DNA of 64,000 bases from Clostridia bacterium (GTDB taxonomy: Bacteria > Bacillota > Clostridia > Christensenellales > CAG-917), in contig JAFTSA010000004.1 of the NCBI GenBank assembly GCA_017461985.1, forward strand, positions 1 through 64,000, in the 5' to 3' direction. The notes under the pieces are model-generated. The model was not told where the DNA came from. It made no database searches and worked only from the letters and a program-made list of their open reading frames with translations. The position numbers and the translations under genes are program-made. Below are positions 9,591-52,490 of the stretch, piece after piece (position 1 is the first letter of the stretch; every line of letters begins with the position of its first letter).

Positions 9591-9596
9591 GCGCTG

Positions 9597-16791: not shown

Positions 16792-16828
16792 TGATAGGAT
16801 ATTCAGAAATTGAATAAAAATTCAAAAT

Positions 16829-16837: not shown

Positions 16838-16860
16838 TAGAGATACTCCCTCGTATTTTT

Positions 16861-27506: not shown

Positions 27507-27834
27507 AAACGCGCTATTTGGCACAATAAAAAAGCACTCGTGTTGAGTGCTTTTTTTTACTAATTGTGTGCGAACTCCTCTAAGCATATGTCCCCCTTCC
27601 TCATGTGTTTCCCCCTTCTGCCTACGGCAGAGCCCTACGGGCAGGGCAACACTCGGCTCTCGCACATTCAGCGACGTCGTCTCATTATGCCACTTGTCGC
27701 TTTGGTGCAAAAAAACAGAGCGCACCAGCGACTGCGTACAAATTCTGGTGCTCGGCGCTCCCTTCCTCGTCGCCGCTGCTCCTCGCGTTCCGTCTTCGAA
27801 CAAGTGAGTGCTTGTATAAGTACGCAACAAACAT
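27503..27834 (+). repeat. Dispersed structured repeat, copy A
   Basis: The sequence from the stop codon of the exporter gene onward matches copy B at 52106-52490: CTAAAAACGCGCTATTTGGC, then a terminator with an AAAAGCACTC stem, then a block opening GTCCCCCTTCCTCA, two TAC-loop hairpins (CTGCC-TAC-GGCAG, GCCC-TAC-GGGC), a GGTGC...GCACC hairpin, and the end CAAGTGAGTGCTTGTATAAG. The conserved part is non-coding: short frames through it differ between copies. Origin and function are unknown. Confidence 0.75.
27528..27558 (+). terminator. Rho-independent terminator of the exporter operon
   Basis: AAAAAAGCACTC (27528-27539), loop GTGTT, GAGTGCTTTTTTTT. It is part of repeat copy A. Confidence 0.9.
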
Positions 27835-28101: not shown

Positions 28102-28130
28102 TTGCCAGAATTGTACATATAATATAAAAT
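28102..28130 (+). promoter_or_regulatory. Promoter of the giant surface-protein operon
   Basis: TTGCCA (28102-28107) and TAAAAT (28125-28130) with a 17-base spacer. It gives a leader of about 170 bases filled with hairpins. Confidence 0.6.
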
Positions 28131-28306: not shown

Positions 28307-31300
28307 ATGAACACAACAAGAAAGGAAAGATTCATCCAAAAAGCAACCCGCCTCACCGTAAAGGTGTTGCTTTTCAGTCTTCTCCTTTCTCTTTTTTTAT
28401 ACGCGTGTATAGGTGCAGGCGCTGACGCTCCCACAGGCGTCGCTGAAGCAACCGCAGGCGATTATTATTCCACAACTGGTGGAGATATTGTTCTCAAAAA
28501 AGAGGCACTTTCTGCAGGATATTTTACTCTCGATGAGACTTGGGGAACTTCATCTTATTCATCATACTGGAACTATAGTTACAGCAATGGCAATTACATT
28601 TCCTATTCTCCTGGCATTTGTGACGGTAATGGTGCGGGCATTAAGGCAATTAGTGACAATGTAAAAAACGGATATAACACGAATTCCGCATATGCATATA
28701 TCAATCTTGTTGCACCTGCAAACGTGACAATCGAGAGTGTGACTGTTAAAGTCGATATTTATGCACGATCCGATGGTTCAAACTGGTTGTCATCTGCTGA
28801 CCACTCAACAAAAGCAAACTTTGATATTGTAGGTATCAGTAAAACAACTAGTGTTGCACAAACCACGGCAGAAGAATATGGGGATAGAGATGGAACAAAC
28901 TCGTCTTCAATAACAACTGGTGTGACACATACGGAAACATTTTCTAATGGTCAGTCTATTCAATTGCGCCTCACTGGAACTTATTACAAAGAAGCTGGTT
29001 CTGTTCAAAAGAATGAAGTTCAACACTGGGCTCAGGCAAAGAATATTTCTATTTCAGTCACTGGCTACTATAATGTAACAGTCAACACTCAAGGAAGTGG
29101 AACTATCGCTGCTAGTGATGCAAGTGGTGCATCTTATTCAGGCACAACTGCGAAGTTTACAAAGACATCTGACTCCATCAAGTTTACTGCAACCCCTACA
29201 GACAGCAAATATGTTTTCACTGGTTGGTCAGACGGCAACATAGACAATCCTAGGACATTCACTGGTGCAGGTGTGACTCCTGGTGGCACATACACGGCAA
29301 TCTTTGAAGAAAGAGCGATTGTCGCTTATGACGCCAATGGTGGCGTTGGCACTGAGGCGTGGACTACTGAAACGAAATACACCACAATAACATTGCGAAC
29401 TGACTGCCCATACACACGAGACGGTTATTATTTTGTTGGGTGGGGCACAAGTGCAAGTTCGACTACGCCAGTGACAAGTGTGACAACTGGTGCTGGAGGA
29501 GAAACCACAAGAGTTTATGCCATTTGGAAAGGCATCAACTATACCATAACTTATGACGCTAATGGTGGCACTGGCTCTGTAGGACAAACCACAGGTACGT
29601 TCAATGGCGGCGATGCACCGCTGGCAGCCAATTCATTCGTCAGGACTGACCGCTTCTTTATGGGCTGGGATGTTGACGCAAATGCAACTTCAACTCCAAA
29701 TTGGCTCATCGGCACACACCCAAATTATAGTGTTGCCAAAGCCACAATGGGTTCATATTTGACTGCACTGCAAAACGGTAATATCAAAACCAGCAGTGTT
29801 TCATTCACAATGTACGCCATTTGGACACCTGCACTGGAATTTGGCAGTTATTCAGGCAGAACAGGCAAGTGGGGCACGGAAGGCAATCCCTATGTCATAA
29901 GAAATACAACACATCTCAACAATTTGAGAAATATTGTCAACGGAAATGCAAATGCAACAGGAAGCACCACGGGTTCATCTTTGGCGCGTTATACAAATCC
30001 TCAAGCAACTTCGCACAATTACTCAGGTGCATTTTTCGAGTTGGCGGCTTCTTTGGATATCGGAGGAGGAACGGTCAATCCTATAGGAACAAGCACCAAC
30101 AATTTTAGAGGAACTTTTGATGGCCTCAACAACACAATAAGCAATTATAGTATTCCTGCCGGTCAATACGGTGGGCTTTTTGGCTATATCAATGGAGCAA
30201 CCCTCAAAAACTTTACTGTAAGACCCGGCACAATCAATGGTGACGCCACGGACAAGGGCGCTGTGGTTGGTTATATGACAGGGTCCACGCTTTCAGGCAT
30301 AACCACTTCAGGTGGTGCTGTTTGGGGGCATGGTTACACGGGTGGCATAGTTGGTCGCGCCGAGGGCACAAGCTCCATCATCAATTGCACAAACCTGGGC
30401 ACTATTGTCTACAACAATGGCTCGACTGCTGGCACAGGTGGCATTTTGGGTTATGCAAATGGCACAATCACTGTCACTGGTTGCAAAAACTATGGCACAA
30501 CCAGCCCCACATCTGCCAACAACAACACAACGTACAACGTGTATTTCTCCAACGATACAGCCCGTGATGGTTGGGGAGGAATTGTCGGATATTCCAACAG
30601 TATGCTCACCCTTTCGGGTTGTGAAAACAGAGCAAGCTTGATTTGGAAACAAAACAATGCCGGTCACGACAATTTCTACGCAATCGGCGGAATTGTTGGC
30701 AAAATGAACAATGGCTTGATTTCAAGTTCCAAAAACTTTGGCAATATCGAAGGCGGAAAACTCACAGGTGGCATTGTTGGTGAAGTCATTGGCGGAGCAA
30801 CCGTGTCACAATGTTACAATGCAGGCGCCGTTCAGACCTGGAGTTTTGGCAAATATACATATTATAACGGCGATGGCGCATACGTGGGTGGCATCGCAGG
30901 CGCATCGCGCGGTACTATAGAATATTGTTATTCAATCGGTTCAGTCACCGACAATTCCGGCAAGGGTTTTGCTGGCGGCATCGCCGCAGCAACAGAAGGA
31001 AACATCAACTATTGCTATAGTGTTGCAACCATCTCTTCATCAGTAGGCACTGGCGTTGGCAACTTGCTTGGACACTCACCCAGTGTTGTCAACGTTGGCA
31101 CCAGTTGGGCATTCTTCTCAGGCGCAGTGCCTTCAACCAGCAACACATGTGAGCTTAATGGTTCAACTTGGACTCGCGGCAGAGCAGCAGTTTTGCCGTC
31201 TTCTATTGCGACAGCAAGCATACCCTCGGTGGTTGTTCCCGCTCTTGGAAACGTTGCTTACTCCTCTTGGGAGCAAATCACAGAGTATAAGTTTGATGGG

Positions 31301-34300
31301 TTTGGCCTCACTTTCACAACCAACGCAAACAGCTTCGTTCAAGCAGTCAACCTCACCACCAGCAAGGTGGCAGGCACTACACCCATTGAGGCTTCATTTG
31401 TCAGTTCATCAACATCAATTAACGGAACAACAAGCACTTCTGTCAGCAACCAAGTCACTCTCAGCATGGGCTTCAGTGCCAACATAGACAATAGCCATGC
31501 AGGTCTTTATATTGACCCCGGCAAAGCAATAGGGGCATCCATAAATTCAAAGACTTATGATGCAACAAGCGAGGCTCCTGTTCTTGGAACTGGCAACGCA
31601 GGAAGCCAAGCAAGATTCCTTTATTATCATGGTGGCAAGTGGCAAACAACTGCACCCACAAATGCTGGAACATATAGTGTGGCAGTTGAAGTCATTTCAA
31701 ATGGTGGTGTCATCGGCAGACAAACAGGACTCAGCTACACCATCAACAAGAGAACATTGACAGTGACTCTTGAGATGTCTGGTGGTTGGGCTGCATACAC
31801 GTACAATGCGGCTCACCAAGGCGTGACTTTTGTCAAGGTTGAAAATCTCCCCACCGCGCTGACAAATGCACAAAAGGAAAACGTATTCCAAGTGACATCT
31901 GATGGGACAAATAGTGTCACCTTGAGTAAAGTACATGGTTCTGGAACATTGCAATATAATGTAAGCGATGCAGTCAATGTCGGCAGTTATAGCGTCAATA
32001 TCACACTCAGTGACACTTCAAACTATACGCTTACAGGACGTGCTGCTGGATCATATAGTTGGACAATTAGCAAGAGAGAACTTACTCTGACCGCAACGTT
32101 TGAAAATAACCAAAATCTGTTTTCTTACGAATATTCTGCTGGACATCAAGGTGTAAACCAACTGCAGATTTCAAATTTCCCCACAAATTCAGGCAATCAA
32201 AACATTGTCACAGTTGAAACACTTTCGGGGTCAACCAAACCTACCGTAAGCCAAAAGACACAGAATCCTCTTGTTTACAGCATATCCGGTGCAAAGGACG
32301 TTGGCAACTATGGTTTTGTTGTCACCCTAATAGATACCCACAACTACACCCTAAAATATGGTTCAACAACCAGCGCAACCCACAACTTCTCTTGGGCAAT
32401 CACTCCCAAGAATTTGGCAGACAGCGATATAAATCCTAATTTCAGCCAACCTGATTTGGAATACACAGGCGAGGAAAAGGATGCAGGGTATACTGTCAAG
32501 TGGGCAGCAGGCAGTGGTGCAGGCAATGGCGCAAATGATAGTGGTGCTGAAATTACACTACTCAAGAACAACGACTTCACTGCATCATACAATGGTGTCG
32601 ATCGTGTCAATGTCACTGGTCAAGCAATCGTCATCACCATAACCGGCAAGGGCAACTATACTGGCACACGCACATTCTCTTATACAATCGTTCCTTATGA
32701 TCTCGTTGCGCACATTTTGACCACACGAGATGCTTTCATCTATTACGGCGGCACAGCATTTGGCGCTCCTTCAAGAAATGAAACTTACGGATGGGATATG
32801 TATCCTTTCGTAAATCTAACCGACTCAAATGGCTATGCAGCCCTTGACGCAGGCATCACTTCGGATGCACAAATTTATGACATTGTTTATTCTGCCGAAA
32901 GATTCAAACTGGTCACCAATCTCGGACAATTAAATCCCAATCTCATCACCGCAGAAACAACGTTGACGGATGGTGAGGTTTTCGACAGCATAAATGCTGC
33001 CACAGGCGTGTCAAGTTTGACCACAATCACATGGAGAGGCACACAAAATTACACAGGCACAATCACCGTCAAATTTGTTGTTGTCAACAGCGACTTTGGC
33101 GCAGTTTCACCTGCGGATCGCAATGGTGACGGCAAGGTTGAAAGCGAGTGGGGCAGTGTGGACAATCCTTACGTCATCAGCCACTGGATCCACCTCCTTA
33201 GACTCAGTGAAATCGTCAACGGCAACAGCGATCCTATCAATAGTGTCCGTGGCATGGGCGTCAACGAAAATAATGCAAGCGCCAATGTGGTTGCATCAGA
33301 TATATTCTATTCTGCCCACAATGCAGACGGAACAATCAAGAGATCATATTTCTTGATGAATTCCGATATTGACATTCCAGAGTATGTTTCCTTCAATCCT
33401 ATTGGTGGCGTCACATTCTCCTCCGCAAAGAAAGACGCATTCAACAATGACGTGACACTGTCATATTTTGGTGGCGTGTTCAACGGTTATGAGGCTGGTG
33501 CAAACAGAACTTACACCATCAATCTTAGAGATCATCTCAACGATGATTACACACTGCTTTCTGAAAACTTTAGAGCCGGCGGAGAAGATGTGGACAATCT
33601 CTTTGACGGCAACACCGCAACCAAGCTTTGTTATGACAACGGAAGCGGAAGCGCAACATTCATCATCGAAATCAGCAATCCTAGATACCTCCGCGGTTTC
33701 TATTGGGCAACAGCCAACGATACATTCCACACCAGCTATACATCTAGAAACCCCTACAATTTCCAAATTTGGGGTTCAAATGATAATTCCACATGGACAC
33801 AACTGATCAATATCAGCAAAGATAATTGGGTTGGAGAAAACTTTACTTATTCAGAAAACGTAAACTTCACCAACCCCGGTGCATATCGCTATGTCAAAGT
33901 GACCGTACGCAACAAGTCAAACAGTGGCCTCTTACAACTTTCAGAGTTTGGTGTTTATTCTGACTATGTTGGTCTGTTTGGCGTTGTCAAGGGCAATGTA
34001 ATCAACAATACAGCTGCTCATGCAGAAGTCAACAACGTCGTCATCACAACCACATCAGCCATTGAAGGAAATGACTATGTTGGTTCACTTATCGGCAAGG
34101 CAGACAGTTACGTGCGCGTTGATTATACCTATAAATCAGGAAATGCGTTGATAACAAGTCAATATAACAACACAATTGCCATCAACGGCGCAAACTACGT
34201 CGGTGGTGTTGTGGGCTACCTTGGTCTTGGCAGTGAAATGTACGGCGAATTTGTCAACAATGCAAATGTCAGCGGATCAAGCTACGTTGGCGGCATCATC

Positions 34301-37300
34301 GGTCAAATTATGGCAGGCGCAGGCCGTCAAGGCACAGGCGCAAACGCAGGCACCTATTATCTTGGTGAATACACCATTGACGGAGTCAAACGTGTATCAT
34401 CAATGACCAACTACGGCTCAGTGGTTGGCTCACAAGCATACACAGGTGGTGTCATAGGTGCAATGACTCAAAACAACGTAGCACCTTATGACGGAGTCAT
34501 CACCGTTTTCGAGCCTACGTTCATCCGCAACGAAGCCAACGTCACAGGTCAAACCGTTGTTGGTGGTCTTGTTGGACGCATTGAATTGAACAACGCGATC
34601 CGTCTCATCAACACCGAGGACGAAGGCCAAGCAAATTGGTCATACAACGGCAACATTGACAGCACTGTCTATGAAATCACCACAAACACCAGTTATGCAG
34701 GCGGTTTGTTTGGCGTGTTGAGCACAATGGGACACCAAATTGAAAGTGTGTTCTCAACGGCAGTGGTCAAGACTTCAGTTGACTACTCATTAATCAACGA
34801 AGGCAACTATATCGGCGGTCTCGTTGGCTATATGAACGGTGGTACGTTCAGATATTCATTCGTATCCCTCCCTGGCAACCAAAACGTGGACACAACCACG
34901 GATATGGTCCGAGGCGACAAATATGTTGGCGGTCTTGTTGGCAATATGGCACTGGGAACTTTGGACACTTGTTACGTCCAAGGCTTCATGTATGACAACA
35001 ACCTTACCACCGCAAGGGGCGGTGTTGCAGGCGTTGCCGCAACAGTTGCAACCATCAAGGACACTTGGGCGCTCTATCTCACAGCAGATCCTACGTACCA
35101 AAGTGTCCCTGCCAACGCATACGGCAACTATATCCTCTCATTCTGCAGCAGTAGTGACGGCGCAATGAACGCATACATTGACGAAATGTTCGTCTTTGCA
35201 GGCCTCATCTCTGACGGCGCAGTTTCAAGAGCCCACGCAACAGGCTCAGCAGGCGAAATCGAAGCAAAGAAGGGAAGCATCTCTCTCGGCATCGCTCTGC
35301 CCAGTGTTGGCACAATCACAGGCTACGACCAAAAGGCACAAGTTGTGTTCTACGACGGCAGTGGCTATGAAGATCCCTTCGAACACGCCTTTGAAGCCGC
35401 AGCAAACGACAGCAATGAACAAAACCTTTTCCTCCGTCTGAGTGCATCAACAGAGGGCAGTGTCATCATTGCAAAGACAAGCGTCCGCTTTGGCAGTATT
35501 TCAAACTACACCAACAGCACCGCTTGGGAAGAGAAGTATCTCTACATCGGCAAGACAGGTCTGTACAAGGTTGACGTGGTGGATCATCCCGACGACGACG
35601 GCAACTATCACAGAGGCAGTTATCAAACCTCTTACAGTTTCGACTATTCCGCAACAGGCAACTACGTCAAGACTTCAAGAGATTTGACTTTCCAATACGC
35701 AAAATATTCAGCAGTTGCACCTCGTGTCATCGCATCAGTTGCAGACTGGAACGCATTTGCAACCGACGTCAAAAATTCAGGCGTAGGCGGGCTTAGACAA
35801 TACGTCAAACTTGCCAACAACATCACAGTCACCCAATCAAACCTTGCAGGCAGAGAAAGCACGGACGACATCAGTGCGCACAACTTCCAGGGCACCTTTG
35901 ACGGTGACGGATATACCATTACAATCAACATTAACGGAGCAAACGCAGCATCACGCAATGAACTTGGCTTGTTCCCTCAAGCAGGCAATGCAACCTTCAA
36001 GAACTTGACCATCAAGGGCACTTGGACCAACCTTGGCAACGACTGTGGAGCATTTGTTGGACACGCACGAGGATGGCTCACCTTTGAAAACTGCATTTCA
36101 GACGTTGATATGTCAGGCAACGGACACAGCCACGGCGGTATTCTTGGCTCAACAAGTGCGCAAACCAAGTATGACTACACCTTTATTGCATGCGTCAACC
36201 TTGGCGATATTACGTCATACGAAAGTGGCAGTCAGGCATACGGTGTCGGTGGCATCATCGGCAATGTTTGGAATGGCTATCGTGACAGTGGCAACGACAG
36301 TTATTCCAGCACATTTGGTTCACAACCCATAATCCGCCTTGACTCATGCCGTAATGCAGGCAACATAATGGCATCATACAACGTTGGTGGCATCATTGGC
36401 AGAACAGGTGGCGCAACAGAAATCATCAGCTGTGGTAATACAGGCAACATTGAGGCGCTTTGTGAAGGCACGCCCTCAGCACCTTTAGCAACAAATAGTA
36501 TTTCCAAAGATGGTAGTGCTGGTGGTATCATAGGTCTTGTTGGTGGCTCTGGTTATGCTGACGTTTACGCATCATACAACACTGGCACAGTCCACGCATG
36601 GGGCAACAAAGCCGGTGGCATCATGGGTTCAGACACTGAATATACAACTCAATCACACGTCACCAAGGTGTACTATTGCTATAACACGGGAACGGTTAGC
36701 ACAGGTGGCAAGAAATTTGCCGTATTCAATTGGGCAGGCGTTGAAATTTTTGGAGTCATGATTGGTGATCCTTCACTTTCTGATAATGGAACGTACACAA
36801 TTGTAGCTCTTGGCTCTGGTCAATGGTGGGGTGTCAACTGTGGTGGTATTCTTGGCACTGCAGTCAATTCAGATATAAGGTACTGTTACAATGCTGGCGA
36901 TATCGTTGTGCGAGGAGCATCTGGTGAAGTAGGAACATGGCACGGACGTGTCGGTGGTATTGTTGGCATGGTTGACGGAACCACAACCTATATCCGCAAT
37001 AGCTACAACGTTGGCGATATCAAGGTTGAATCACGTGGTGCAAGCAATGACAGACCTAAATATGCTGGAGGTATCGTTGGATATTTCAAGGTTGTTGAAG
37101 GCACCGAAGCAAACATATTTGACTGCTACTCACTTAAGTGGCAAATTCAATGGCAAAACGACAGTGGCAACTACAAACGCTATCATATTGGTGGATACAA
37201 TCACAGTGGTATAAGCATTGGTGGAGATCAATACGATACTGATACCTATGCATCAAGTGGTGGCGCAGGACACGTGCTTTCTTCTGTTGCAGAACTCACT

Positions 37301-43300: not shown

Positions 43301-46300
43301 AACCTTACCGCAACCATCACCATTACACCTTGCCCCATTGAAGTAAACTGGAAAAACGTGTTCAACAACAAGGCAGGCAACGGCTACGTCTATGACGGCA
43401 ACACAAACGGACCCGTCATCGGCAGTTTGACGGTGGGCGAAGTAGAAAAGGCCTTCTCAAACGGCAAGGCAGAAGGCGTCACCAAGGATGAATCAATTTC
43501 ATTGTCTGTTGGCTACACTGTTGAAAAGAACGCATCAACAAGTGTCACAGCCTACACCAAGGACTTCAAGGTGACAGGCACCAACGCAGTTGGTGATGCA
43601 CTTGCAAGCAACTACACCTTTGTTGGTGGTGCTGGATATGACGAAGGCGAAGACAGAGTCGAAAAGACCTTCTCAAGAGCAAAATCAATCGTTTACGTCG
43701 ATGTCACTGTCGAGAACATCCCCGACAAGGTCTTTGACAACACAACCAACGTTGGCACAATCACTTATGACCATACAGTTCGTTCAACCAACAGCTCAAA
43801 GACTTGCTCAGTCACTGGCAGATCACTTACAGGCAAGTTCAGCGATGCAAACGTTGGATCAAACAAGACGGTCAACTTGACCTTCAGTGCAAGCCTTTCA
43901 GACACAACCAACTTTGAATGGGCAAGCACCAAGTATAACATCACAGGCGTCAAGACGGCAGATATAACTGCAAGACCTCTTTATATCCAACTGAACAACG
44001 GCGCAAACGGAAGCATCTACAAGACCTATGACAACAGCACCTTGTATGCATCAGTCACCTCAGATTCAGGTGACGAAAAGCAAAGCACCGGCATTCAATG
44101 GCGTACAGGCAGAGGTATCTTGGTCAGTAATTTCTGCACAAGCGACATCACGGTCACAGCATCATTCCTTGAAGTTGATCAAAAGAACAGAAGTGACTTC
44201 AATGCATACGTCAACGATATCTACAAGGATACCAATGGTGAATACGTCATCGGTGGCACAAGCGCCACAGACACCTCCTACAAGATGCTCAGATTCGTTT
44301 TGAGTGGAGAAGGCAGCACCAACTACTATATTGCTCAAATCACCGACAAGAGTGGCAACGTCCTCAAGAGCAACGCAAACACAGGTCTTACAACCCTTGA
44401 CATCGTTGACACAGCAGAGGACAACGTCAGCATCGTCATCAAGAAGGCATCAGTGAAGGTGAACTACTCCAACACCTCACAAAGCTATGCAAATGCTGAC
44501 AACACCTACAACACCAACTGGAATGAAGTGACAGGTCAAATTTCAACCAGCAAGTACAAGAATTTGGCAGACGTCCACGTTGAAAATGGTTGGATGTATG
44601 ACGAAAACGGTGATGCCGCGGTCTATAAGAAATACACTCGTATTGCAGGCTCAGCAACAAGCCCTCGTTTGGGCGCAACCCTCACCAGTGCTGACGGCAA
44701 GCACTTGTGCTTGACCCTCCGCAACCAACCCACCCTCATCATCGGCTACTTCGTTGAAAAGAAAGGCGGATATGAGATCGGTTCAATGGCAGGTTTGCTC
44801 ATCGCAAGCGAATACTTCAAGAACAACTTCAACACAAGTGATGAAAAGGGCTATGACTATATCCAAACCGAAATTCCTTTCAGCAAGGATGACATAATCA
44901 GTGGTCACTCGTCATTGCACCTCAAAGTGCCCGAAAATGTTTACACTCAAATCGCAAACAACGAAATCACCACGTGGGAACAACTGCTTGCAGCAGTGCC
45001 CGAATATGATCCTAGAGGATATACACACGAAAACGTTGAATACGAAGGGGCAAACTACTATCTCAGTCTCCTCGATGATTTGGACGACGTGACAGATGAA
45101 TACTTGAAGGCAGCACTGCAATCACAACTTGACTCCTTCGAGTTCGTGTATGAACTCATCAATGCATCAGGTGAAGCAGTGGAGTCAGAAACATTGCACC
45201 TTGTCTGGTGGGTACCTGTTGAAGTCAAAGACACCCGCTCATACAACTCATTCATCCTTGTTGACAACATTGATGCAATCCTCACCGATGCAGACATCGA
45301 TATGCTCACAGGTGCATTTGGCAGCAACTATGGTGTGGGCAAGACCTATCTTCCCAACGTGGTCTTTGCCGAAGCAGGCAGTGTGGTCATCTTCAACGGT
45401 CCTATCTTTGATTACTCAACTGACAAGGACGACAACAAAGTTGGATTCAACGGCATCTTTGACGGCGACGGATATTCAATCGATCATCTTACAATCGCAT
45501 ACGTTGTCACAGAAACGTCCCACAACAACGTTGGTATGTTCGCAGAAGTCAGCGGAGAAGGCAGTCAAGTGACAAAGGTCAACCTCCGCAACCTCAATAT
45601 CCAAGTCATCGACACAACCGCATCCGCCAAGGTCATCAACGTTGGTGGTGTGGCAGGCAAGTTTGCTGCATCAACGGTTATGGAAGACGTGACAGTCCAC
45701 GGCACAATCTCAGTGAAGTCAACTCTTGGCACGGTCTATGCAGGCGGTGTCATCGGCAGTGACAGCACTGGCTACGTTGACGGTGGCGTGTCTAAGGTCA
45801 TTGACGGCGCAATCGTTGTGGCAACGGTGAGAGCAGAAGGTGCAATCGCAGTTGCAGGCGGTGTCATCGGCATTATGAACGAAGTCAACACAACTCTCAC
45901 CGACGTAGTGTCACTGAGCGAAGTGTACGCAGAGGGTGCAAACACCTACGCAAACGGCTTCGTTGGACAATATGCAAAACTGGTGGATGGCAACGCATCA
46001 TACGATCAAGACGGCATCGACTACGCACCTTTGAACAGCACTGGCAAGACCTCTGCATATATGAACAGCGTCTTTGAAATCAGTGCAGACGGCACATACA
46101 CAAGAATCGCAGGCGGTGTGCCCTATGACACCCTCTACGTCGGAAGCACATCAATCTTTATCGAGAGCGGAGCACCTGGCGGATATGTTGTGTATCCCAC
46201 TTCAGATCAAAAAGATAGTAAGCCCGAATCAAATACTTACGATGTGATAAATGAATATCTTGCTGGCAGTGAAACTAACGCTAGAGAAAGCATGCGTCTT

Positions 46301-46726
46301 AGAGATATCGTGGACACCTATGTCCTCGGCTATGAACTCACAAAGACAACGGTTGGCGAAATTGCCACTTATGCAAAGGCAACCACCTCTAAGTACGTTG
46401 GCGAAGCGAACGGCGTAGCATACAGCACAGATCCCGACACAAAAGCCAAACCCATCAACATTGCATATCAACAACACCTGAACCTCATCCGCATGTTCAA
46501 CTATATGAACTTCACGTTGAACAAGGACGTCACCATGTACACAGGATACAAGCTCTATATGGTTGACGAGGCATTCACAGGTACGATAGAGTCAAATGGA
46601 CACGAGGTCAACGTCCGCAGTTCAGAATCCAACAAGGACTTTGTGGATGACGATGACGACGACACAACCTATCCTCAATTCTTCGCATATCAAGACGTAA
46701 ACTTTACCTGGCTCAAAAAGGACTAA
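28307..46726 (+). CDS. Giant secreted mosaic protein, 6139 residues (InlB-type, GLUG-like, MBG-like, discoidin-like regions)
   Basis: One uninterrupted frame. A signal peptide (hydrophobic 16-33; Cys34 in FLYACIGAG is a poor lipobox) leads to a beta region, three InlB-B/Listeria-Bacteroides-type repeats (about 254-505; TYDANGG, GYYFVGWG, VYAIW), GLUG-like repeats (about 515-965; GGIVGY.., GGLFGY..), MBG-like repeats (about 1075-1598; NAGTYSVAVEV...SYTINKRTLTV), a calcium-loop-like DRNGDGKVESEW at 1604, more GLUG-like repeats with an embedded F5/8-C-like domain (about 1745-1885), a long GLUG-like tract (about 2470-4230), a second MBG-like tract (about 4470-5385) and a final GLUG-like part. No LPXTG, C-terminal helix or SLH domain is seen; the end is Asp-rich. 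Likely adhesin or matrix scaffold. AAAGG precedes the ATG. Confidence 0.9.
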   Translation: MNTTRKERFIQKATRLTVKVLLFSLLLSLFLYACIGAGADAPTGVAEATAGDYYSTTGGDIVLKKEALSAGYFTLDETWGTSSYSSYWNYSYSNGNYISYSPGICDGNGAGIKAISDNVKNGYNTNSAYAYINLVAPANVTIESVTVKVDIYARSDGSNWLSSADHSTKANFDIVGISKTTSVAQTTAEEYGDRDGTNSSSITTGVTHTETFSNGQSIQLRLTGTYYKEAGSVQKNEVQHWAQAKNISISVTGYYNVTVNTQGSGTIAASDASGASYSGTTAKFTKTSDSIKFTATPTDSKYVFTGWSDGNIDNPRTFTGAGVTPGGTYTAIFEERAIVAYDANGGVGTEAWTTETKYTTITLRTDCPYTRDGYYFVGWGTSASSTTPVTSVTTGAGGETTRVYAIWKGINYTITYDANGGTGSVGQTTGTFNGGDAPLAANSFVRTDRFFMGWDVDANATSTPNWLIGTHPNYSVAKATMGSYLTALQNGNIKTSSVSFTMYAIWTPALEFGSYSGRTGKWGTEGNPYVIRNTTHLNNLRNIVNGNANATGSTTGSSLARYTNPQATSHNYSGAFFELAASLDIGGGTVNPIGTSTNNFRGTFDGLNNTISNYSIPAGQYGGLFGYINGATLKNFTVRPGTINGDATDKGAVVGYMTGSTLSGITTSGGAVWGHGYTGGIVGRAEGTSSIINCTNLGTIVYNNGSTAGTGGILGYANGTITVTGCKNYGTTSPTSANNNTTYNVYFSNDTARDGWGGIVGYSNSMLTLSGCENRASLIWKQNNAGHDNFYAIGGIVGKMNNGLISSSKNFGNIEGGKLTGGIVGEVIGGATVSQCYNAGAVQTWSFGKYTYYNGDGAYVGGIAGASRGTIEYCYSIGSVTDNSGKGFAGGIAAATEGNINYCYSVATISSSVGTGVGNLLGHSPSVVNVGTSWAFFSGAVPSTSNTCELNGSTWTRGRAAVLPSSIATASIPSVVVPALGNVAYSSWEQITEYKFDGFGLTFTTNANSFVQAVNLTTSKVAGTTPIEASFVSSSTSINGTTSTSVSNQVTLSMGFSANIDNSHAGLYIDPGKAIGASINSKTYDATSEAPVLGTGNAGSQARFLYYHGGKWQTTAPTNAGTYSVAVEVISNGGVIGRQTGLSYTINKRTLTVTLEMSGGWAAYTYNAAHQGVTFVKVENLPTALTNAQKENVFQVTSDGTNSVTLSKVHGSGTLQYNVSDAVNVGSYSVNITLSDTSNYTLTGRAAGSYSWTISKRELTLTATFENNQNLFSYEYSAGHQGVNQLQISNFPTNSGNQNIVTVETLSGSTKPTVSQKTQNPLVYSISGAKDVGNYGFVVTLIDTHNYTLKYGSTTSATHNFSWAITPKNLADSDINPNFSQPDLEYTGEEKDAGYTVKWAAGSGAGNGANDSGAEITLLKNNDFTASYNGVDRVNVTGQAIVITITGKGNYTGTRTFSYTIVPYDLVAHILTTRDAFIYYGGTAFGAPSRNETYGWDMYPFVNLTDSNGYAALDAGITSDAQIYDIVYSAERFKLVTNLGQLNPNLITAETTLTDGEVFDSINAATGVSSLTTITWRGTQNYTGTITVKFVVVNSDFGAVSPADRNGDGKVESEWGSVDNPYVISHWIHLLRLSEIVNGNSDPINSVRGMGVNENNASANVVASDIFYSAHNADGTIKRSYFLMNSDIDIPEYVSFNPIGGVTFSSAKKDAFNNDVTLSYFGGVFNGYEAGANRTYTINLRDHLNDDYTLLSENFRAGGEDVDNLFDGNTATKLCYDNGSGSATFIIEISNPRYLRGFYWATANDTFHTSYTSRNPYNFQIWGSNDNSTWTQLINISKDNWVGENFTYSENVNFTNPGAYRYVKVTVRNKSNSGLLQLSEFGVYSDYVGLFGVVKGNVINNTAAHAEVNNVVITTTSAIEGNDYVGSLIGKADSYVRVDYTYKSGNALITSQYNNTIAINGANYVGGVVGYLGLGSEMYGEFVNNANVSGSSYVGGIIGQIMAGAGRQGTGANAGTYYLGEYTIDGVKRVSSMTNYGSVVGSQAYTGGVIGAMTQNNVAPYDGVITVFEPTFIRNEANVTGQTVVGGLVGRIELNNAIRLINTEDEGQANWSYNGNIDSTVYEITTNTSYAGGLFGVLSTMGHQIESVFSTAVVKTSVDYSLINEGNYIGGLVGYMNGGTFRYSFVSLPGNQNVDTTTDMVRGDKYVGGLVGNMALGTLDTCYVQGFMYDNNLTTARGGVAGVAATVATIKDTWALYLTADPTYQSVPANAYGNYILSFCSSSDGAMNAYIDEMFVFAGLISDGAVSRAHATGSAGEIEAKKGSISLGIALPSVGTITGYDQKAQVVFYDGSGYEDPFEHAFEAAANDSNEQNLFLRLSASTEGSVIIAKTSVRFGSISNYTNSTAWEEKYLYIGKTGLYKVDVVDHPDDDGNYHRGSYQTSYSFDYSATGNYVKTSRDLTFQYAKYSAVAPRVIASVADWNAFATDVKNSGVGGLRQYVKLANNITVTQSNLAGRESTDDISAHNFQGTFDGDGYTITININGANAASRNELGLFPQAGNATFKNLTIKGTWTNLGNDCGAFVGHARGWLTFENCISDVDMSGNGHSHGGILGSTSAQTKYDYTFIACVNLGDITSYESGSQAYGVGGIIGNVWNGYRDSGNDSYSSTFGSQPIIRLDSCRNAGNIMASYNVGGIIGRTGGATEIISCGNTGNIEALCEGTPSAPLATNSISKDGSAGGIIGLVGGSGYADVYASYNTGTVHAWGNKAGGIMGSDTEYTTQSHVTKVYYCYNTGTVSTGGKKFAVFNWAGVEIFGVMIGDPSLSDNGTYTIVALGSGQWWGVNCGGILGTAVNSDIRYCYNAGDIVVRGASGEVGTWHGRVGGIVGMVDGTTTYIRNSYNVGDIKVESRGASNDRPKYAGGIVGYFKVVEGTEANIFDCYSLKWQIQWQNDSGNYKRYHIGGYNHSGISIGGDQYDTDTYASSGGAGHVLSSVAELTAMMKSNEEISTNSVNSLNGSSESDAGVLINNDIKSGNYPGWIFLPGCLPQLSMFAVDTQNGLAMTSLGYGRNNLGEFVQQVAGSEFNPYVIKDGIDLLGVMALTSAKGGNSTFGFDGKFIEFANGTNNLAGDVCTYIQLPTSDVNSGNDYVFYDGSTKKKGKSYHLYDRGANGLHNGTLSTSDATISASNKTAPATSVYATNQESSGNFTLNSSNAYATWKARNYGYNGSWTSNVGYGTTNWNPIGYLGDSSVTSGGKTYYRDFRGHITGDLGDGTNAEIRDINSYYGFNRTNVYAGLFGVVRNAHVENITVTGTIHADTLNDNGIISAGIVAKALDNSYISGLQAGTAGTAGTEPRSLTVKTGPNGGAGYTGGIVGMADSGATGNRLTIADSVVINASIKGFKDSIGGIIGYSVGADASSFTDIIGCHVVGAHIESTASEKKLLGGIVGAQGATGALTVSGCHVGTEGNTPADLDSESSYGVVIKGDHSFGGIISFAEAGAGCANAFIDCYVWEDVLIKRYNDNNETDKGYGTAIGGIVGYVSDDAAGYATFRGEIEFHGTINVSGFDNVQNVGGVVGYMGSSARMEQCFVTVAGTIDAESCSNADSIGGFAGISKGVALDGIFTIAPSLLTDTADNVGGFIGLNDGDTYITRTTTIETGGQIKAHYNVGGFIGANAEGSALHMGAAEYKGTVYGEDGDKASITLGASVDGQRYIGGFLGYNNGKVFGEHCLVTNTGAVGTNDSSKGTSLDDTVDCIGGVFGDNSSNGDINISADATFINNGQVGHEDHAVAYQEFVGGVLGVALGDITNEGTLGNTGSVYGYQYVGGAIGGLVRGVISGELSNGNDVVLHATAESEALVASDEAVSTAATGSSSVKAVVNVGGVIGVIMQGATISGATLTNYGSVTSTGDSYNVSNLGGAIGLNYGIIENSEFYNYGKIKAKNFAGGAIGVNDGTIRNSDFVNSATITFTGDTALGGAVGYITNNYTTHGTTAYYPDNPALSAYEYNDSTRNFSTVTDSYFGYESIDNSKVVVQATGVDPYAFNANDDADSAFAAQGGLGGVFGAINSDDMKASGGWSGNTFFVYGDVYGGVFKSNDDDGGVYVDDATTPFTNQNFGGTVQAVGGVIGAIEVSYISIHNMLIYKSNVGGLRRVGGVVGFNGNANSTEGAGAAVDNCYNVYGNVIGTSTSVRKVTDSQIEVGTITVNYEDVGGIVGYIPTDPNVVTGEAYDPKTNASYWIKSYANELLQNSNPDNITETLDKASTWTEFLSYADYSNNVDELDANGNPIHLVGEIDTWDKYFAANPGLYVQNANGDWGSYSEESVTIKYNTGTLETGYYYLFADDSASFTDHPEGVVVDHENSTDPLDKPYSSNESLNYWLIIVGSAKRAQQPDGTYYNEYASDSVHENVGGAVKAGYIYSTAYASTKNGFYLYVKDQGNATTLNGEGDKIYISSDANTAGNIMIFYKEVVPYNNFVYNGYERYAQLVDINFSEDQPTEGVGEENINNYFGKYYYTFNGTVPGEDGIGINRATNAGSHDLKATIWTVDSKGKPITLGSVDSTIDGADQYKWSIKKRNIEVDFDTQSPHIVDTKNNEDPADAFRFDNTFSHYIKFTVSNIAIDVDEDVSSGEKIMEIINKIVTPKYSFNGGSESSLVDLKEGSVVPEIQVPQNSEVANVSFYAVGANSTSGSKNDTDNCYVYATDEYKNIGSVKLYSATYIVYFKKAGSHKVSVTATDTNHRASSSDNKTVSVDKRELKLEVNTSENNWKTVYTFDGGKNWQGVTSVVISNFIAGTLDDKTDYITTTGSTEGLSNGKNNGNADEHIVVDASANTITVNFYANDAASYNAVVELAALFKDSYYFVFKGTEIGTLSSGTEPSKWNVGWTINPYTIVAQADGISGGTYVYDGTIHAVKIASGDDSITGGVEGAPETVEVSIDVNMTDSVGNSISQACNVGTYTATIEAASGVAGVGKVIAESSSKSSASINNYVIEFSLKEGSNLTATITITPCPIEVNWKNVFNNKAGNGYVYDGNTNGPVIGSLTVGEVEKAFSNGKAEGVTKDESISLSVGYTVEKNASTSVTAYTKDFKVTGTNAVGDALASNYTFVGGAGYDEGEDRVEKTFSRAKSIVYVDVTVENIPDKVFDNTTNVGTITYDHTVRSTNSSKTCSVTGRSLTGKFSDANVGSNKTVNLTFSASLSDTTNFEWASTKYNITGVKTADITARPLYIQLNNGANGSIYKTYDNSTLYASVTSDSGDEKQSTGIQWRTGRGILVSNFCTSDITVTASFLEVDQKNRSDFNAYVNDIYKDTNGEYVIGGTSATDTSYKMLRFVLSGEGSTNYYIAQITDKSGNVLKSNANTGLTTLDIVDTAEDNVSIVIKKASVKVNYSNTSQSYANADNTYNTNWNEVTGQISTSKYKNLADVHVENGWMYDENGDAAVYKKYTRIAGSATSPRLGATLTSADGKHLCLTLRNQPTLIIGYFVEKKGGYEIGSMAGLLIASEYFKNNFNTSDEKGYDYIQTEIPFSKDDIISGHSSLHLKVPENVYTQIANNEITTWEQLLAAVPEYDPRGYTHENVEYEGANYYLSLLDDLDDVTDEYLKAALQSQLDSFEFVYELINASGEAVESETLHLVWWVPVEVKDTRSYNSFILVDNIDAILTDADIDMLTGAFGSNYGVGKTYLPNVVFAEAGSVVIFNGPIFDYSTDKDDNKVGFNGIFDGDGYSIDHLTIAYVVTETSHNNVGMFAEVSGEGSQVTKVNLRNLNIQVIDTTASAKVINVGGVAGKFAASTVMEDVTVHGTISVKSTLGTVYAGGVIGSDSTGYVDGGVSKVIDGAIVVATVRAEGAIAVAGGVIGIMNEVNTTLTDVVSLSEVYAEGANTYANGFVGQYAKLVDGNASYDQDGIDYAPLNSTGKTSAYMNSVFEISADGTYTRIAGGVPYDTLYVGSTSIFIESGAPGGYVVYPTSDQKDSKPESNTYDVINEYLAGSETNARESMRLRDIVDTYVLGYELTKTTVGEIATYAKATTSKYVGEANGVAYSTDPDTKAKPINIAYQQHLNLIRMFNYMNFTLNKDVTMYTGYKLYMVDEAFTGTIESNGHEVNVRSSESNKDFVDDDDDDTTYPQFFAYQDVNFTWLKKD

Positions 46727-46739
46727 CCCGCGCGGTTAG
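46723..46739 (+). promoter_or_regulatory. Intercistronic hairpin after the giant gene
   Basis: CTAACC-CGCGC-GGTTAG forms a perfect 6-bp stem that includes the stop codon of the giant gene. No T tract follows, so it probably protects or separates mRNA segments rather than ending transcription. Confidence 0.5.
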
Positions 46740-46752
46740 ATGACTGAAAACT

Positions 46753-47694
46753 ATGGCAAAAGAAGGCAAAAAGTTCAATAAAAAACTTGCATTGACGGTG
46801 GCAATACCGGCACTGGTTATGGCTGTAATAATTGCAGTCATAGGTGTGTCATTTGCTTGGTTCACCGACAGTGTCACTGCCGAAATCGCAACCATCAATC
46901 TTTCGGTTGCGGAAATGTTTGTCATGGAATTCGTCCTTGACGAACAAACCTTGACAAACCCTGAAACTATGCAAAATTACATCTATGAAGGGCAGACCGC
47001 CTATGATAATGCTGGCATGCTTGTTACAGATGTTCATGCAAACGAGCAACTCGGTATTACGACAGGTGCAAGTTATGTTTCATACATGAATGACAAAGCA
47101 TTTGTTGCTCCATTCAGCCTCCGTCTTGACACAGAAGGATACAAGGTCGCGTTCAGTTGTAAGATCACCAATGTCAGCATTTCCAACTCAAGCAGTCAAA
47201 ACATATCTCCAATCGTTTTGCCCACGGACAATGATACCAAGGATGATTTGACCGACGATTTGACAGAAGAAGACATTAAGCTTGGATTTACGTGGTATAT
47301 TAAGAATTCTAAAAATAGTCTCTATACTCCATTCGGAACGATACCCAACATCGTTTACACACGCGAGGATACAATTGAGCCAGCGTTGGATATTGAAAAT
47401 TGGTCAGTGCCTGTTTTGAATGAAAACTTTGTGGCATCTCACGACGGCAGTGAAGGCTACAATTACACATTCAATATAGTGTTTGCACCTGAAATCCTTT
47501 ATTGGCAACAATATGGATCAGTTGATGTCTATAATCAAACTGCGGAACAAATTTATGGAGACGCCAACGAAGATGGTGGATTTAGATCAACCAAGTGGAA
47601 TGCGATCAACAAATACTCCTCCCAGGTGTATTCTGGCTCGACCTATAAGTTTACCGTCGTGTTAACGGTTGACTCAGTGGTGAAGGTAGGATAG
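46753..47694 (+). CDS. Secreted SipW/TasA-type protein 1
   Basis: This 313-residue protein has a long hydrophobic N-terminal segment (about 14-35) followed at once by SFAWFTDSVTAEIATINLSV. A helix ending in A-W-F-x-D before a beta-rich secreted domain is the hallmark of TasA/camelysin-like proteins processed by SipW-type signal peptidases. A GDANEDGGFRS segment near the C-terminus looks like half a calcium-binding loop. No exact family was recognised in the body. It starts 26 bases after the giant gene stop with no Shine-Dalgarno site, so it is probably cotranscribed. Confidence 0.8.
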   Translation: MAKEGKKFNKKLALTVAIPALVMAVIIAVIGVSFAWFTDSVTAEIATINLSVAEMFVMEFVLDEQTLTNPETMQNYIYEGQTAYDNAGMLVTDVHANEQLGITTGASYVSYMNDKAFVAPFSLRLDTEGYKVAFSCKITNVSISNSSSQNISPIVLPTDNDTKDDLTDDLTEEDIKLGFTWYIKNSKNSLYTPFGTIPNIVYTREDTIEPALDIENWSVPVLNENFVASHDGSEGYNYTFNIVFAPEILYWQQYGSVDVYNQTAEQIYGDANEDGGFRSTKWNAINKYSSQVYSGSTYKFTVVLTVDSVVKVG

Positions 47695-47696
47695 AA

Positions 47697-48527
47697 ATGA
47701 AAAAGACTTCAATACTTCTTGCATCTTCCATAATGATTCTTGCTGTTATCGTGGCAATAGTGGGCGTCACTGCCGCTTGGTTTGGCAATCAATACACCTA
47801 CAACGGAGCAGTTGAAGTCTCTTCTCATAACCCCGACAACAACGCAATTATCGTCCCTGACAGCACAAGTCCGTTGCCTACAGGAGAAAGTGCAACACTT
47901 GCTCCTGCACGCATTAAGAGGGGGTATGTCCTTGAAGACGTGTTTGGCGAAGGCGGATACGACAACATAGATGTCACCAAGCCTAACGATGCATTGGAGA
48001 CAACAGCAGTGCCAGTCACAGTCACTTTTGACTTTGTCTACAATGGTGCACCTTCAAACACTGACGGAATAACTTCAAAAATGCAAATAGAACTCGTTTC
48101 TGTTACACTTGCAAATCCATTGCAAGAAGTGGATTTTGACGGAGATGGAGACAAAGATGAGGCAGATAAGGAAGCATTCCAGGCTGCCCTTGTAAACTAT
48201 CGTGATGAATTTGCTCTCTCAATGTTCATTACCACAACTGACAGCAGTGTCATGATGTTCACAAATAGCGATGGTCAAACTCTCTACACTCAAAAGACAA
48301 AGGAAGTAAAAGAGGATGACACCACCGTCACGATCACTTATTATGAACTGAACGATGACTATTACATTGCTGACGACAACAATCATAGAGTGACTTTTAA
48401 TATGATTCCTGTCACTCACACCCTAAATGCGACCATCTATTTCATCCACGTTGATGAAGAGACTCCTCCCGAACTTATAAACGCACAATTGTTCCTCAAT
48501 TTTAAGGTTACGTTTGTTGCATCATAA
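47697..48527 (+). CDS. Secreted SipW/TasA-type protein 2 with calcium-loop motif
   Basis: The 276-residue protein begins with a hydrophobic segment (about 5-23) followed by VGVTAAWFGNQYTYNGAVEVSS, the same A-W-F pattern as its neighbour. The body is beta-rich. DFDGDGDKDEADKEAFQAAL fits an EF-hand/dockerin-type calcium loop followed by a helix, but only one copy is present, so this is not a complete dockerin. GGTAGGAT lies just upstream of the ATG, two bases after the previous stop. Fibre subunit or adaptor is inferred from the N-terminus. Confidence 0.8.
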   Translation: MKKTSILLASSIMILAVIVAIVGVTAAWFGNQYTYNGAVEVSSHNPDNNAIIVPDSTSPLPTGESATLAPARIKRGYVLEDVFGEGGYDNIDVTKPNDALETTAVPVTVTFDFVYNGAPSNTDGITSKMQIELVSVTLANPLQEVDFDGDGDKDEADKEAFQAALVNYRDEFALSMFITTTDSSVMMFTNSDGQTLYTQKTKEVKEDDTTVTITYYELNDDYYIADDNNHRVTFNMIPVTHTLNATIYFIHVDEETPPELINAQLFLNFKVTFVAS

Positions 48528-48533
48528 TTTGAT

Positions 48534-49199
48534 ATGAAAAACAAAAAAATAATGATTATTGCACTCGTAGTTCTTTTAGTCGGTGCTGTGGCGGTTGCCA
48601 CAGGGCTTACTGCTGCATACTGGGTTGGGGCAGAAGGCGACAGCGAAATTGCTCCCCAAACAGATACAACAGATTGGAACTATTGGAGCAAATACTTCAT
48701 TTATGAAGCCATCAAAGAAAACAATAATACCGTTGGATATAAGATCGTAGGCTTTGAGGGTGCAGTCCTTGAGAATGTAATCATTCCACGTATAGCGCGC
48801 GGTGGCAGACTTAAAAATGCAGATGGCACATACAGTGAAATCGTGGACTCAGCTCTTGTAAAAATTGTTGGCAATAGCATCTTCGCAAATACTACGGACA
48901 AGGCTATTCCCACAAGCATCACACTTCCAACTACAGTTGCAGTTGAGCCTGGTGCATTTATAGGACTCGTCAATTTGATTTCAATTAAAGTTGTGTCTGT
49001 ATTAGGCGAAGATAACGTTATTTATGACAATTCAATTGAGATAGGAACAATGGCATTTTTTGGCTGTGATAAAGTAGAAAGATTTATTGCCGCAACAGAT
49101 ATCCAGTTTACGACAGATGCAAATGCAAGTGGCATGAGTTTTGATGCGCTCAAAACCGCCACTGGACTTCCTGCTGACCTTACTCGTTCTGCTTCGTAA
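48534..49199 (+). CDS. Secreted protein 3 with SipW-like N-terminus and BspA-type leucine-rich repeats
   Basis: The 221-residue protein has a hydrophobic segment (about 6-24) followed by TGLTAAYWVGAEGD, a variant of the A-W-F pattern. From about residue 75 it shows BspA-type leucine-rich repeat spacing: VKIVGNSIFANTTDKAIPTSITLP, then AFIGLVNLISIKV, then IGTMAFFGCDKVERFIAA. Such repeats are common in surface proteins of gut Bacillota and Trichomonas and mediate binding. No strong Shine-Dalgarno site; it starts six bases after the previous stop. Confidence 0.8.
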   Translation: MKNKKIMIIALVVLLVGAVAVATGLTAAYWVGAEGDSEIAPQTDTTDWNYWSKYFIYEAIKENNNTVGYKIVGFEGAVLENVIIPRIARGGRLKNADGTYSEIVDSALVKIVGNSIFANTTDKAIPTSITLPTTVAVEPGAFIGLVNLISIKVVSVLGEDNVIYDNSIEIGTMAFFGCDKVERFIAATDIQFTTDANASGMSFDALKTATGLPADLTRSAS

Positions 49200-49239
49200 A
49201 ACGGCGTTAAACCGCACAAATTAAAGGATAAAACCCATT

Positions 49240-50445
49240 ATGAAACAAAAAGTTGAAAAAAAGAAAGTTGCTCCCATCAAGATTTTGATGGGACTTTTTG
49301 TCCCTTTCATCCTTCTCACCATCTTCTTTTCGGTGCTTTTGAACGATGCCACCGTTGACGTAGGCACGGGCGCAACTGACGGCAAATACGCCTCAGTGTT
49401 GTCAGGGATTGACGGAATTGTGGAGGCAAATCCTCGTCTTGTTGACATTGCAATGCTTGCTTCTCACGACGCAGTCACTGACAAACTTTCTCCCGACAGC
49501 CCTATGGATTATCACGACCGCCCCACAGTGCTTGGCAAGCTTGACCCTATCACCAGCGGTTTTCAATATCGTTTTGGCAAGACACAAGCCGTAGGCCTTG
49601 ACGTCCAACTTAGACAAGGGGCAAGAATGTTCCACATCAAGTACACGGACTATGAGGGCACTTGGTACGCAACCCACGCCCACCTGTCAGACACCATCGA
49701 GGCATACGTTATGCAAGTGCTTCATTATCTTGCATCTCCAGAGGCAAAGGGCGAAATCGTCATCTTGTTGTGGCACCCTATGTATTTTGGAGAGGGAGTC
49801 ACCTTGGACACCTTCCACCACTGGCTTGCAGGGGTGAAACTTGACGGCAAGAGCCTTTACGACTATGTCCACTACGGCACTACAAACACCTTTGATGAAG
49901 AGGGCAAACCAGGCGTGAGAATAGGTGACCTCCGCTACAATGACCTTACGCTCAATGGCACCGCCCCCGGCGTTGTAATGTTTGACCGCAGAGAGGGCAC
50001 ACGCTTTTATGAAGACGGTATGGAAGGCACTTTCACCGATGAATATATGGGCAAATTCTTTGATATGGACGCAAACGCCACCCACGTATGGCACAGCCGT
50101 ATTGGTCAAGACACCCTCATTGAAAAGATAAACGCCCAAGCAAAGATAGTTGAAGAAAGTGATCAGTGGGACAACAAACTTCGTATGAATCAAACTCAAG
50201 CATCCTTCTCGGCCGGCGGATTCAGTGATATCTTCATCGACATCGGCGCATGGAGTTTGCTCCGTTTTGCAAAGGACTACAACGTCGCCCTAGTCAACCA
50301 CGAAAACTTTGATTATTGGCTCAGTGTTATGCCTGTCTTCCAAGTTGACTTTGTCAACAGCAACTATGGTGACTTCAACAACTTAGTCAACCAAAAGATA
50401 ATCGCCTACAACACCACCCTAGTCAACTCAATCTTGAACGCATAA
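49240..50445 (+). CDS. Membrane-anchored PI-PLC-like phosphodiesterase
   Basis: The 401-residue protein has an N-terminal membrane anchor (about 13-34) and a PI-PLC X-type barrel. His76 in IAMLASHDAVTD matches the first catalytic His (usually SHN), and YATHAHLSDTIEAYV (143-157) matches the strand with the second His. The usual Asp of the R-x-x-D strand is replaced by FH in GARMFHIKY, so activity is not certain. Substrates in this superfamily are phosphatidylinositol or other glycerophospho-head groups. AAAGGA precedes the ATG, and the operon ends just downstream. Confidence 0.85.
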   Translation: MKQKVEKKKVAPIKILMGLFVPFILLTIFFSVLLNDATVDVGTGATDGKYASVLSGIDGIVEANPRLVDIAMLASHDAVTDKLSPDSPMDYHDRPTVLGKLDPITSGFQYRFGKTQAVGLDVQLRQGARMFHIKYTDYEGTWYATHAHLSDTIEAYVMQVLHYLASPEAKGEIVILLWHPMYFGEGVTLDTFHHWLAGVKLDGKSLYDYVHYGTTNTFDEEGKPGVRIGDLRYNDLTLNGTAPGVVMFDRREGTRFYEDGMEGTFTDEYMGKFFDMDANATHVWHSRIGQDTLIEKINAQAKIVEESDQWDNKLRMNQTQASFSAGGFSDIFIDIGAWSLLRFAKDYNVALVNHENFDYWLSVMPVFQVDFVNSNYGDFNNLVNQKIIAYNTTLVNSILNA

Positions 50446-50463
50446 AATAAATGATTAAAAGTG

Positions 50464-50492
50464 AAACCTGCACTGGGAAGTGCAGGTTTTTT
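50464..50492 (+). terminator. Rho-independent terminator of the surface-protein operon
   Basis: AAACCTGCACT (50464-50474), loop GGGA, AGTGCAGGTTT (50479-50489) and further Ts: a perfect 11-bp stem. Confidence 0.95.
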
Positions 50493-52109: not shown

Positions 52110-52490
52110 AAACGCGCTATTTGGCGAATAGCATTGTCAAAAAAGCACTCCAAATGGAGTGCTTTTTATTGCTAAAAAGTGCTTAATCACCTAAGCGAAT
52201 GTCCCCCTTCCTCACGTGTTTCCCCCTTCTGCCTACGGCAGAGCCCTACGGGCAGGGACACACTCGGCTCTCGCACATTAGGGATATACCACTCATTATG
52301 CCGCTCGTTGTGTTGGTGCAAAAAATCACAGCGCACCCACAACTTCGCACCCTCGTCTGGTGCGACGCGATTGACGGCTCTGCCGTAGCAATACGCTCTT
52401 CCGTTCCTTACAGCGGCGCTCCCTTTCTCGGCGCCGCTGCGCCTCGCGTTTCGTCACGCAACAAGTGAGTGCTTGTATAAGAACGCAAAA
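52106..52490 (+). repeat. Dispersed structured repeat, copy B
   Basis: It matches copy A (27503-27834) from the stop codon of the upstream gene to GTGAGTGCTTGTATAAG, with the same order of parts. Relative to copy A it carries an extra segment of about 55 bases near 52345-52400. It holds a perfect 9-bp hairpin CAGCGGCGC...GCGCCGCTG (near 52411-52439) where copy A has only GGCG...CGCC. Both copies keep the GGTGC...GCACC hairpin. Confidence 0.75.
52139..52170 (+). terminator. Terminator of the Dabb gene
   Basis: AAAAAAGCACTCC, loop AAAT, GGAGTGCTTTTT; part of repeat copy B. Confidence 0.9.

Follow-up and report, generated by a model that had tools for sequence, protein, structure and literature searches.

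Do a giant open reading frame and the smaller genes that follow it on the same strand encode the parts of one extracellular structure? This question is raised by a locus of an uncultured gut Clostridia bacterium located in the window (the whole stretch of 64,000 nucleotides that was analysed), where the first-pass annotation had proposed a dedicated module of five genes: a giant secreted protein, three small proteins of the SipW/TasA type and a phosphodiesterase-like membrane protein. The genome carrying the window has a size of 1.41 Mb and is 98.5% complete. Comparisons with related genomes were performed at two levels, the family searches covering 43 genomes and the order searches 396 genomes.

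Layout of the operon and architecture of the giant protein

The five open reading frames were confirmed on the plus strand; they encode proteins of 6139, 313, 276, 221 and 401 amino acids and are separated, in gene order, by gaps of 26, 2, 6 and 40 bp. A strong intrinsic terminator formed by a 12-bp stem and a T run (50463 to 50490, plus strand) closes the operon after the last gene, and the tRNA-Ser gene located past it is on the opposite strand. A consensus scan also detected a promoter-like site, TTGCCA-17-TAAAAT, about 175 nt upstream of the giant gene (28102 to 28130, plus strand, 10/12 matches). Since the number of promoter-like sites in the region is near chance (three seen, 1.3 expected) and a second, weaker terminator-like stem is present within the last gene (P0004), the initial description of five same-strand genes between one promoter and one terminator stands for the frames, the strand and the terminator, and a single transcript for the five genes is plausible, not proven.

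The flanks of the operon contain copies of an interspersed non-coding repeat of ~240 bp, which matches the genome at ~30 places and also occurs in two congeners. One copy is located just 5′ of the giant operon (27588 to 27827), another at 52199 to 52488, and a third at 143462 to 143701 of contig C2 of the same genome (G000), between the first SipW gene and the AAA gene of a cluster described below. With ~30 copies genome-wide, this repeat is unlikely to be a specific regulatory tie between the operon and that cluster. A Gut-1 RNA (RF01706; 52533 to 52605, minus strand, 53.2 bits) adjoins one of the repeat copies. Elsewhere in the window, an ORF of 860 amino acids (16810 to 19392) has no Pfam or NCBIfam match.

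The giant gene (28307 to 46726, plus strand) encodes a 6139-residue protein with an N-terminal hydrophobic export signal, in agreement with its earlier description as an extremely large secreted protein. The Listeria-Bacteroides repeat (Flg_new, PF09479) was found in two stretches, one of them at residues ~339-405 (29321 to 29521, plus strand, Pfam E 2.7e-12), and the corresponding NCBIfam model TIGR02543 scores above its cut-off. GLUG-repeat blocks, delimited by Pfam and by a regular expression, are present at residues ~621-860, 1965-2207, 2647-2920 and 3293-4210 (30167 to 40951, plus strand); the Pfam model (PF07581) reaches 23.9 bits in one piece of the protein, for a cut-off of 20.5, and 40 of the 43 GLUG-like core motifs recognised by the regular expression lie inside this interval. 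The GLUG blocks probably form a beta-solenoid stalk, with other segments between them. Two additional putative domains score under their curated cut-offs, i.e., an F5/8 type C (galactose-binding-like) segment at residues 1764-1865 (33596 to 33901, plus strand, PF22633 E 8e-5) and a YDG-like domain at residues ~5133-5208 (43703 to 43930, plus strand, Pfam E 2.8e-4 to 0.0012). A single-sequence PDB search with the middle part of the giant returned nothing useful. Unlike sortase-anchored giant adhesins, which carry an LPXTG-type sorting signal, this protein has no LPxTG or similar motif anywhere in its 6139 residues according to a motif search, and no membrane segment is visible at its C-terminus in the translation.

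Three small exported proteins

The gene following the giant encodes P0001 (313 amino acids, 46753 to 47694, plus strand; family A2), a predicted beta-rich protein with a SipW-type signal ending in AWFTD. With the curated model of SipW signals, TIGR04088, it scores above the threshold (19.9 bits for a cut-off of 19), and a search of its own genome with this model detects only P0001. The signal of P0002 (276 amino acids, 47697 to 48527, plus strand; family A3), also predicted to be beta-rich, ends in AAWFGN, and that of P0003 (221 amino acids, 48534 to 49199, plus strand; family A4) in AAYWVG; both proteins score under the TIGR04088 cut-off, though their motifs sit at the same place. The A-W-F-x-D N-terminus attributed to all three small proteins in the first-pass annotation thus applies to P0001, and P0002 and P0003 carry AWFGN and AYWVG instead. 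The available text of a study of TasA (PMC10269814) reports that E. coli signal peptidase is inefficient on this protein, which would explain the AWF/AYW signature.

The AlphaFold model of P0001 is of moderate quality (pTM 0.70) and beta-rich. In a comparison with the PDB, TasA (5of2) ranked first with values that are not significant (E 0.04, probability 0.35, TM 0.23/0.33), so that the resemblance of the predicted fold to TasA is at most suggestive. The model of P0002, also of moderate quality (pTM 0.67), contains many strands and gave no significant match in the fold search; weak hits to generic beta-sandwich folds, among them a domain of a clostridial enterotoxin, were discarded as not significant. 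At the sequence level, P0001 reaches 14.4 bits against the TasA/camelysin family PF12389, below the cut-off of 22.5, and this Peptidase_M73/camelysin family has no match in the genome at E<=0.001. No sequence relative of P0001 or P0002 was detected in the PDB, and single-sequence PDB searches with P0001 and P0004 gave nothing useful. Once their signal peptides were removed, neither P0001 nor P0002 matched the TasA-like proteins of these genomes, a label that denotes position and N-terminus and not proven homology. A match between the profiles of families A2 and A3 was rejected as well, as it is due to the shared signal peptide and disappears on the mature regions. From these sequence comparisons, P0001 and P0002 each represent a new family.

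The signal of P0003 is followed by a leucine-rich-repeat (LRR) domain of the BspA type. Its family profile matches BspA-type LRR structures with high significance (PDB 4gt6, E 7e-32, plus other LRR structures), the single sequence being under the Pfam cut-off for the LRR_5/BspA repeat. By its family profile, P0003 is a BspA-type leucine-rich-repeat protein and is not TasA-like. The proteins first described as three of the SipW/TasA type are therefore TasA-like in part at most: one is an LRR protein and the mature regions of the two others lack a TasA sequence match. A reading of P0001 to P0004 as a defence system was discarded, PADLOC giving no match.

Conservation of the module, the C-terminal core and the PI-PLC-like neighbour

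Among the 396 genomes searched for the order, full-length relatives of P0001 and of P0002 are present in the same 11. These 11 genomes also contain the C-terminal core of the giant, which was detected in one more (G015), where the contig ends inside the giant gene. With the members that the family searches alone recovered, the carriers of the module number 15, distributed among three genera (g1, g3 and g9); those relatives that bear a name are Clostridia MAGs obtained from the colon of sheep, the rumen and reticulum of water buffalo, and the gut of rabbit. The grouping noticed in the first-pass annotation recurs in these genomes: the gene order giant-P0001-P0002-P0003 and the strand are kept in the three genera where contigs allow, with identities to the window proteins of about 23-35% outside the genus, and core-bearing giants never occur without the small genes, barring the contig end in G015 and the location of giant and small genes on separate contigs in G018. 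A diverged module with the same gene order is also present in another family (f24). This identical co-occurrence, the order conserved across genera and the version in another family make it well supported, from sequence comparison, that the giant and the three small genes are a genuine conserved module. It is improbable, in our opinion, that these genes encode a co-expressed surface set, an adhesin and unrelated exported proteins with no physical assembly: P0003 is indeed a common kind of surface LRR protein and the physical assembly is a putative one, but such a set would not account easily for strict co-occurrence and conserved order at 23-35% identity, kept even where most of the giant has been lost.

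Other GLUG giants exist without the small genes, and several such cases led us to reject a general association of GLUG giants with these genes. In other loci, GLUG giants of up to ~8,000 amino acids are followed by a protein of ~1200-1300 amino acids and then by a P0003-like LRR gene. The proteins of ~1200-1300 amino acids (2029 to 5670 in locus L149, 8223 to 12077 in L152 and 2833 to 6486 in L161) have a signal and a C-terminal membrane segment, and could correspond to an alternative anchor arrangement.

Intact homologues of the giant in other genomes are open frames of 5963-7192 codons. The conserved part of the protein is its C-terminal ~470 residues, within the core that alignment A5 and a profile search place at residues 5630-6139 (45194 to 46723, plus strand). 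In three genomes (G011, G013 and G019), the gene encodes a mini version of 582-594 amino acids, which can be aligned with the window giant at residues ~5640-6100 only. The three genomes branch together as a single clade (100% support) within the giant carriers, and the simplest reading is that this clade lost ~5,500 repeat residues and retained the core along with all three small genes. Because the core and the three genes survive the loss of the repeats, the C-terminal core is most likely the part of the giant that works with the small proteins.

The last gene of the operon encodes P0004 (401 amino acids, 49240 to 50445, plus strand), a PI-PLC-like protein with an N-terminal membrane anchor. 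The family profile (A1) matches bacterial PI-PLC structures (2plc/1aod) with an E value of 1e-6 over part of the X domain, in agreement with the first-pass identification of a PI-PLC-like enzyme; the Pfam model PF00388 remains below its cut-off (E 0.046 at best, in 3 of 23 family members). With regard to the catalytic residues of PI-PLC, two histidines with Arg and Asp partners, His76, Arg129 and His146 are invariant in the 23 sequences of the family, Asp77 is replaced by Gly in several of them, and a Lys apparently occupies the place of an Arg of the solved enzymes, as judged from the alignment and not from superposition on a structure. By comparison with bacterial PI-PLCs, P0004 thus shares similarity to the X-domain profile and differs by its membrane anchor and by this apparent Lys for Arg. 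We conclude from the profile that P0004 is a real distant relative of PI-PLC and a candidate enzyme.

Homologues of P0004 are present in 29 of the 43 genomes of the family, mostly away from the module; they are linked to it only in g1 and g9, and the module lacks a linked PLC gene in g3. In g3, the PLC gene often forms a small cluster with genes for a macro-domain-like protein and for an uncharacterised membrane protein; four of these loci (L044, L045, L048 and L062) also have a TasA-like AWF gene within a few kb. Judged by its distribution, P0004 is an optional accessory neighbour and not a structural part of the module, and its role as a core component is ruled out, being unlinked in most relatives. 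The five-gene module first claimed is consequently reduced to the giant and the three small genes, with a joint function that we infer, and the phosphodiesterase is not obligate. We also regard as very improbable that the functional output of the locus is P0004, as an enzyme that cleaves lipids or GPI and is held or presented on the cell surface by the giant and the small proteins; the shared operon in g1, the linkage in g9 and the real distant homology to PI-PLC agree with such a role, but many genomes have the PLC and no module, and in g3 the module has no linked PLC.

The SipW cluster and a proposed surface assembly

The genome carrying the window encodes, at 137.7-149.1 kb of contig C2, two SipW-like peptidases (142558 to 143445 and 148395 to 149147, both above the TIGR02228 cut-off), an AAA ATPase, a DUF2357 protein and two TATYAWF (TasA-like) proteins. 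This cluster is located ~95 kb from the giant operon, not within it. The arrangement SipW, AAA ATPase, DUF2357 and second SipW gene (142558 to 149147 of C2, i.e., 6559 to 13148 of locus L033) is found order-wide. Its AAA ATPase is McrB-like and matches the PADLOC candidate PDC-M26A (E 4e-36); the presence of such an ATPase pair next to a secretion peptidase was unexpected.

Several observations link the module to this cluster. In the f24 locus L151, the module is directly followed by TasA-like, SipW, AAA, DUF2357 and second SipW genes, and in family f5 the three small families are encoded 3′ of the SipW/AAA/DUF2357 genes, no such giant being seen within the examined stretch. Profile comparisons restricted to mature regions paired the small proteins with their SipW-cluster counterparts at 82% and 76% for P0001, 89% for P0002 and 98-99% for P0003, versus about 1% or less for control pairs. 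On mature regions, P0001 and P0002 match the f24 genes of L134/L151 only weakly (14% and 4%), so that the correspondence with this family rests on position and on P0003. A SipW-like gene is present in 14 of the 15 module carriers, and the SipW-linked AAA gene in 11/15 carriers versus 9/28 non-carriers (Fisher p 0.013, a guide only since related genomes are not independent). The linked AAA gene was undetected in carriers G013, G015 and G018 and is thus not essential to the module.

We somewhat favour the reading that the giant and P0001 to P0003 are parts of one SipW-dependent extracellular assembly, in which the giant would be docked by its C-terminal core. The SipW-type peptidase encoded ~95 kb away with the two TasA-like proteins would process P0001, P0002 and the LRR protein P0003, and the processed proteins would assemble into a small base, or complex of minor subunits, whose members might be held together by donor strands in the manner of TasA/TapA; a TasA-like fibre might carry this base. 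As a putative GLUG adhesin of more than 600 kDa, probably a beta-solenoid, the giant would dock on the base through the conserved core, its long repeat region serving as a variable adhesive stalk, and P0004 would be a co-directional accessory outside the structure. We infer the SipW processing, the physical complex, the fibre, the docking and the adhesion by analogy; the role of P0001 to P0003 as processed minor or base subunits, in particular, is suggested by the known SipW systems, in which small beta-sandwich subunits are processed and polymerise, the fibre being initiated or assisted by minor subunits (PMC9674648, PMC10151520, PMC7395162, PMC13082335). Several findings weigh against this reading: P0002 and P0003 stay under the cut-off of the SipW signal model, P0001 and P0002 lack sequence relatives in the PDB, the fold resemblance of P0001 to TasA is below significance, SipW is encoded outside the operon, giant and small genes are on different contigs in G018, the linked AAA gene was undetected in three carriers, and the correspondence of P0001 and P0002 with the f24 genes is weak.

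The three small proteins might alternatively remain unpolymerised at the membrane or wall through their N-terminal segments and provide a docking station for the C-terminal core in place of a sortase anchor, so that the giant alone would be adhesive. We consider this rather unlikely, yet a rival to be taken seriously, given that the giant lacks LPXTG and a visible C-terminal membrane segment, ends in a conserved core that outlasts, with the three genes, the loss of the stalk, and has GLUG counterparts in L149, L152 and L161 whose following protein, with its signal and membrane segment, is a possible alternative anchor. The SipW signal of P0001 argues against an anchor of this kind, as it marks secreted, cleaved fibre proteins in known systems (PMC9674648, PMC10269814), and so does the location of the small families beside TasA-like genes in other genomes.

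The assembly that we favour can be compared with several described systems. It shares with the tapA-sipW-tasA operon of B. subtilis (PMC9674648, PMC10151520) a SipW-type signal on small exported proteins, of which P0001 exceeds the cut-off of the model, and the presence of SipW and TasA-like genes in the genome, and possibly the logic of minor subunit and major fibre; it differs by the giant, absent from that operon, by the lack of a TasA sequence match in P0001 and P0002, by the LRR subunit and by the distance of ~95 kb to SipW. The sipW-bsaABCRSD biofilm operon of C. perfringens (PMC7395162), another member of the Clostridia, also combines a SipW-dependent extracellular polymer with accessory exported proteins, but it includes a two-component system and no giant or LRR subunit is described, the comparison being based on the operon description only. 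The CapP-TasA-CalY filaments of B. cereus (PMC13082335) are likewise a sortase-independent, multi-component extracellular assembly, for which no giant is described, their small proteins being compared by description only. Giant surface proteins of 3000-8000 amino acids with beta-solenoid regions are known in the 1.5-Mb genome of Apilactobacillus kunkeei (PMC12863079), but in the available text of that report their neighbours are other giants and no SipW-type partners are mentioned. The module thus resembles SipW/TasA systems, yet from the sequence matches it fails the homology test with TasA and is not classed as a TasA member. We found no paper in the open-access literature describing the combination of a giant, SipW-type small proteins and an LRR protein. 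The gene order, maintained even in genomes whose giant is reduced to one-tenth of its size, suggests a cell-surface structure of a kind not yet described, with a relationship to the biofilm-fibre systems already known. More tentatively, it may represent an undescribed class of SipW-dependent surface organelle of uncultured gut Clostridia, composed of a solenoid protein of more than 600 kDa on a SipW-processed base of three subunits, including an LRR protein, and functionally tied to the SipW/AAA-ATPase/DUF2357 cluster.

SipW systems are known mainly from the biofilms of Bacillus and C. perfringens. The natural mini versions of ~590 amino acids, which retain the core and all three partners, make the proposed interaction testable with small proteins. 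The present locus represents a SipW-linked module that is conserved among Clostridia MAGs of the sheep, water buffalo and rabbit gut, with a giant as regular partner and an LRR subunit, and this module suggests that very large adhesins may be mounted on the cell surface in a sortase-free manner.
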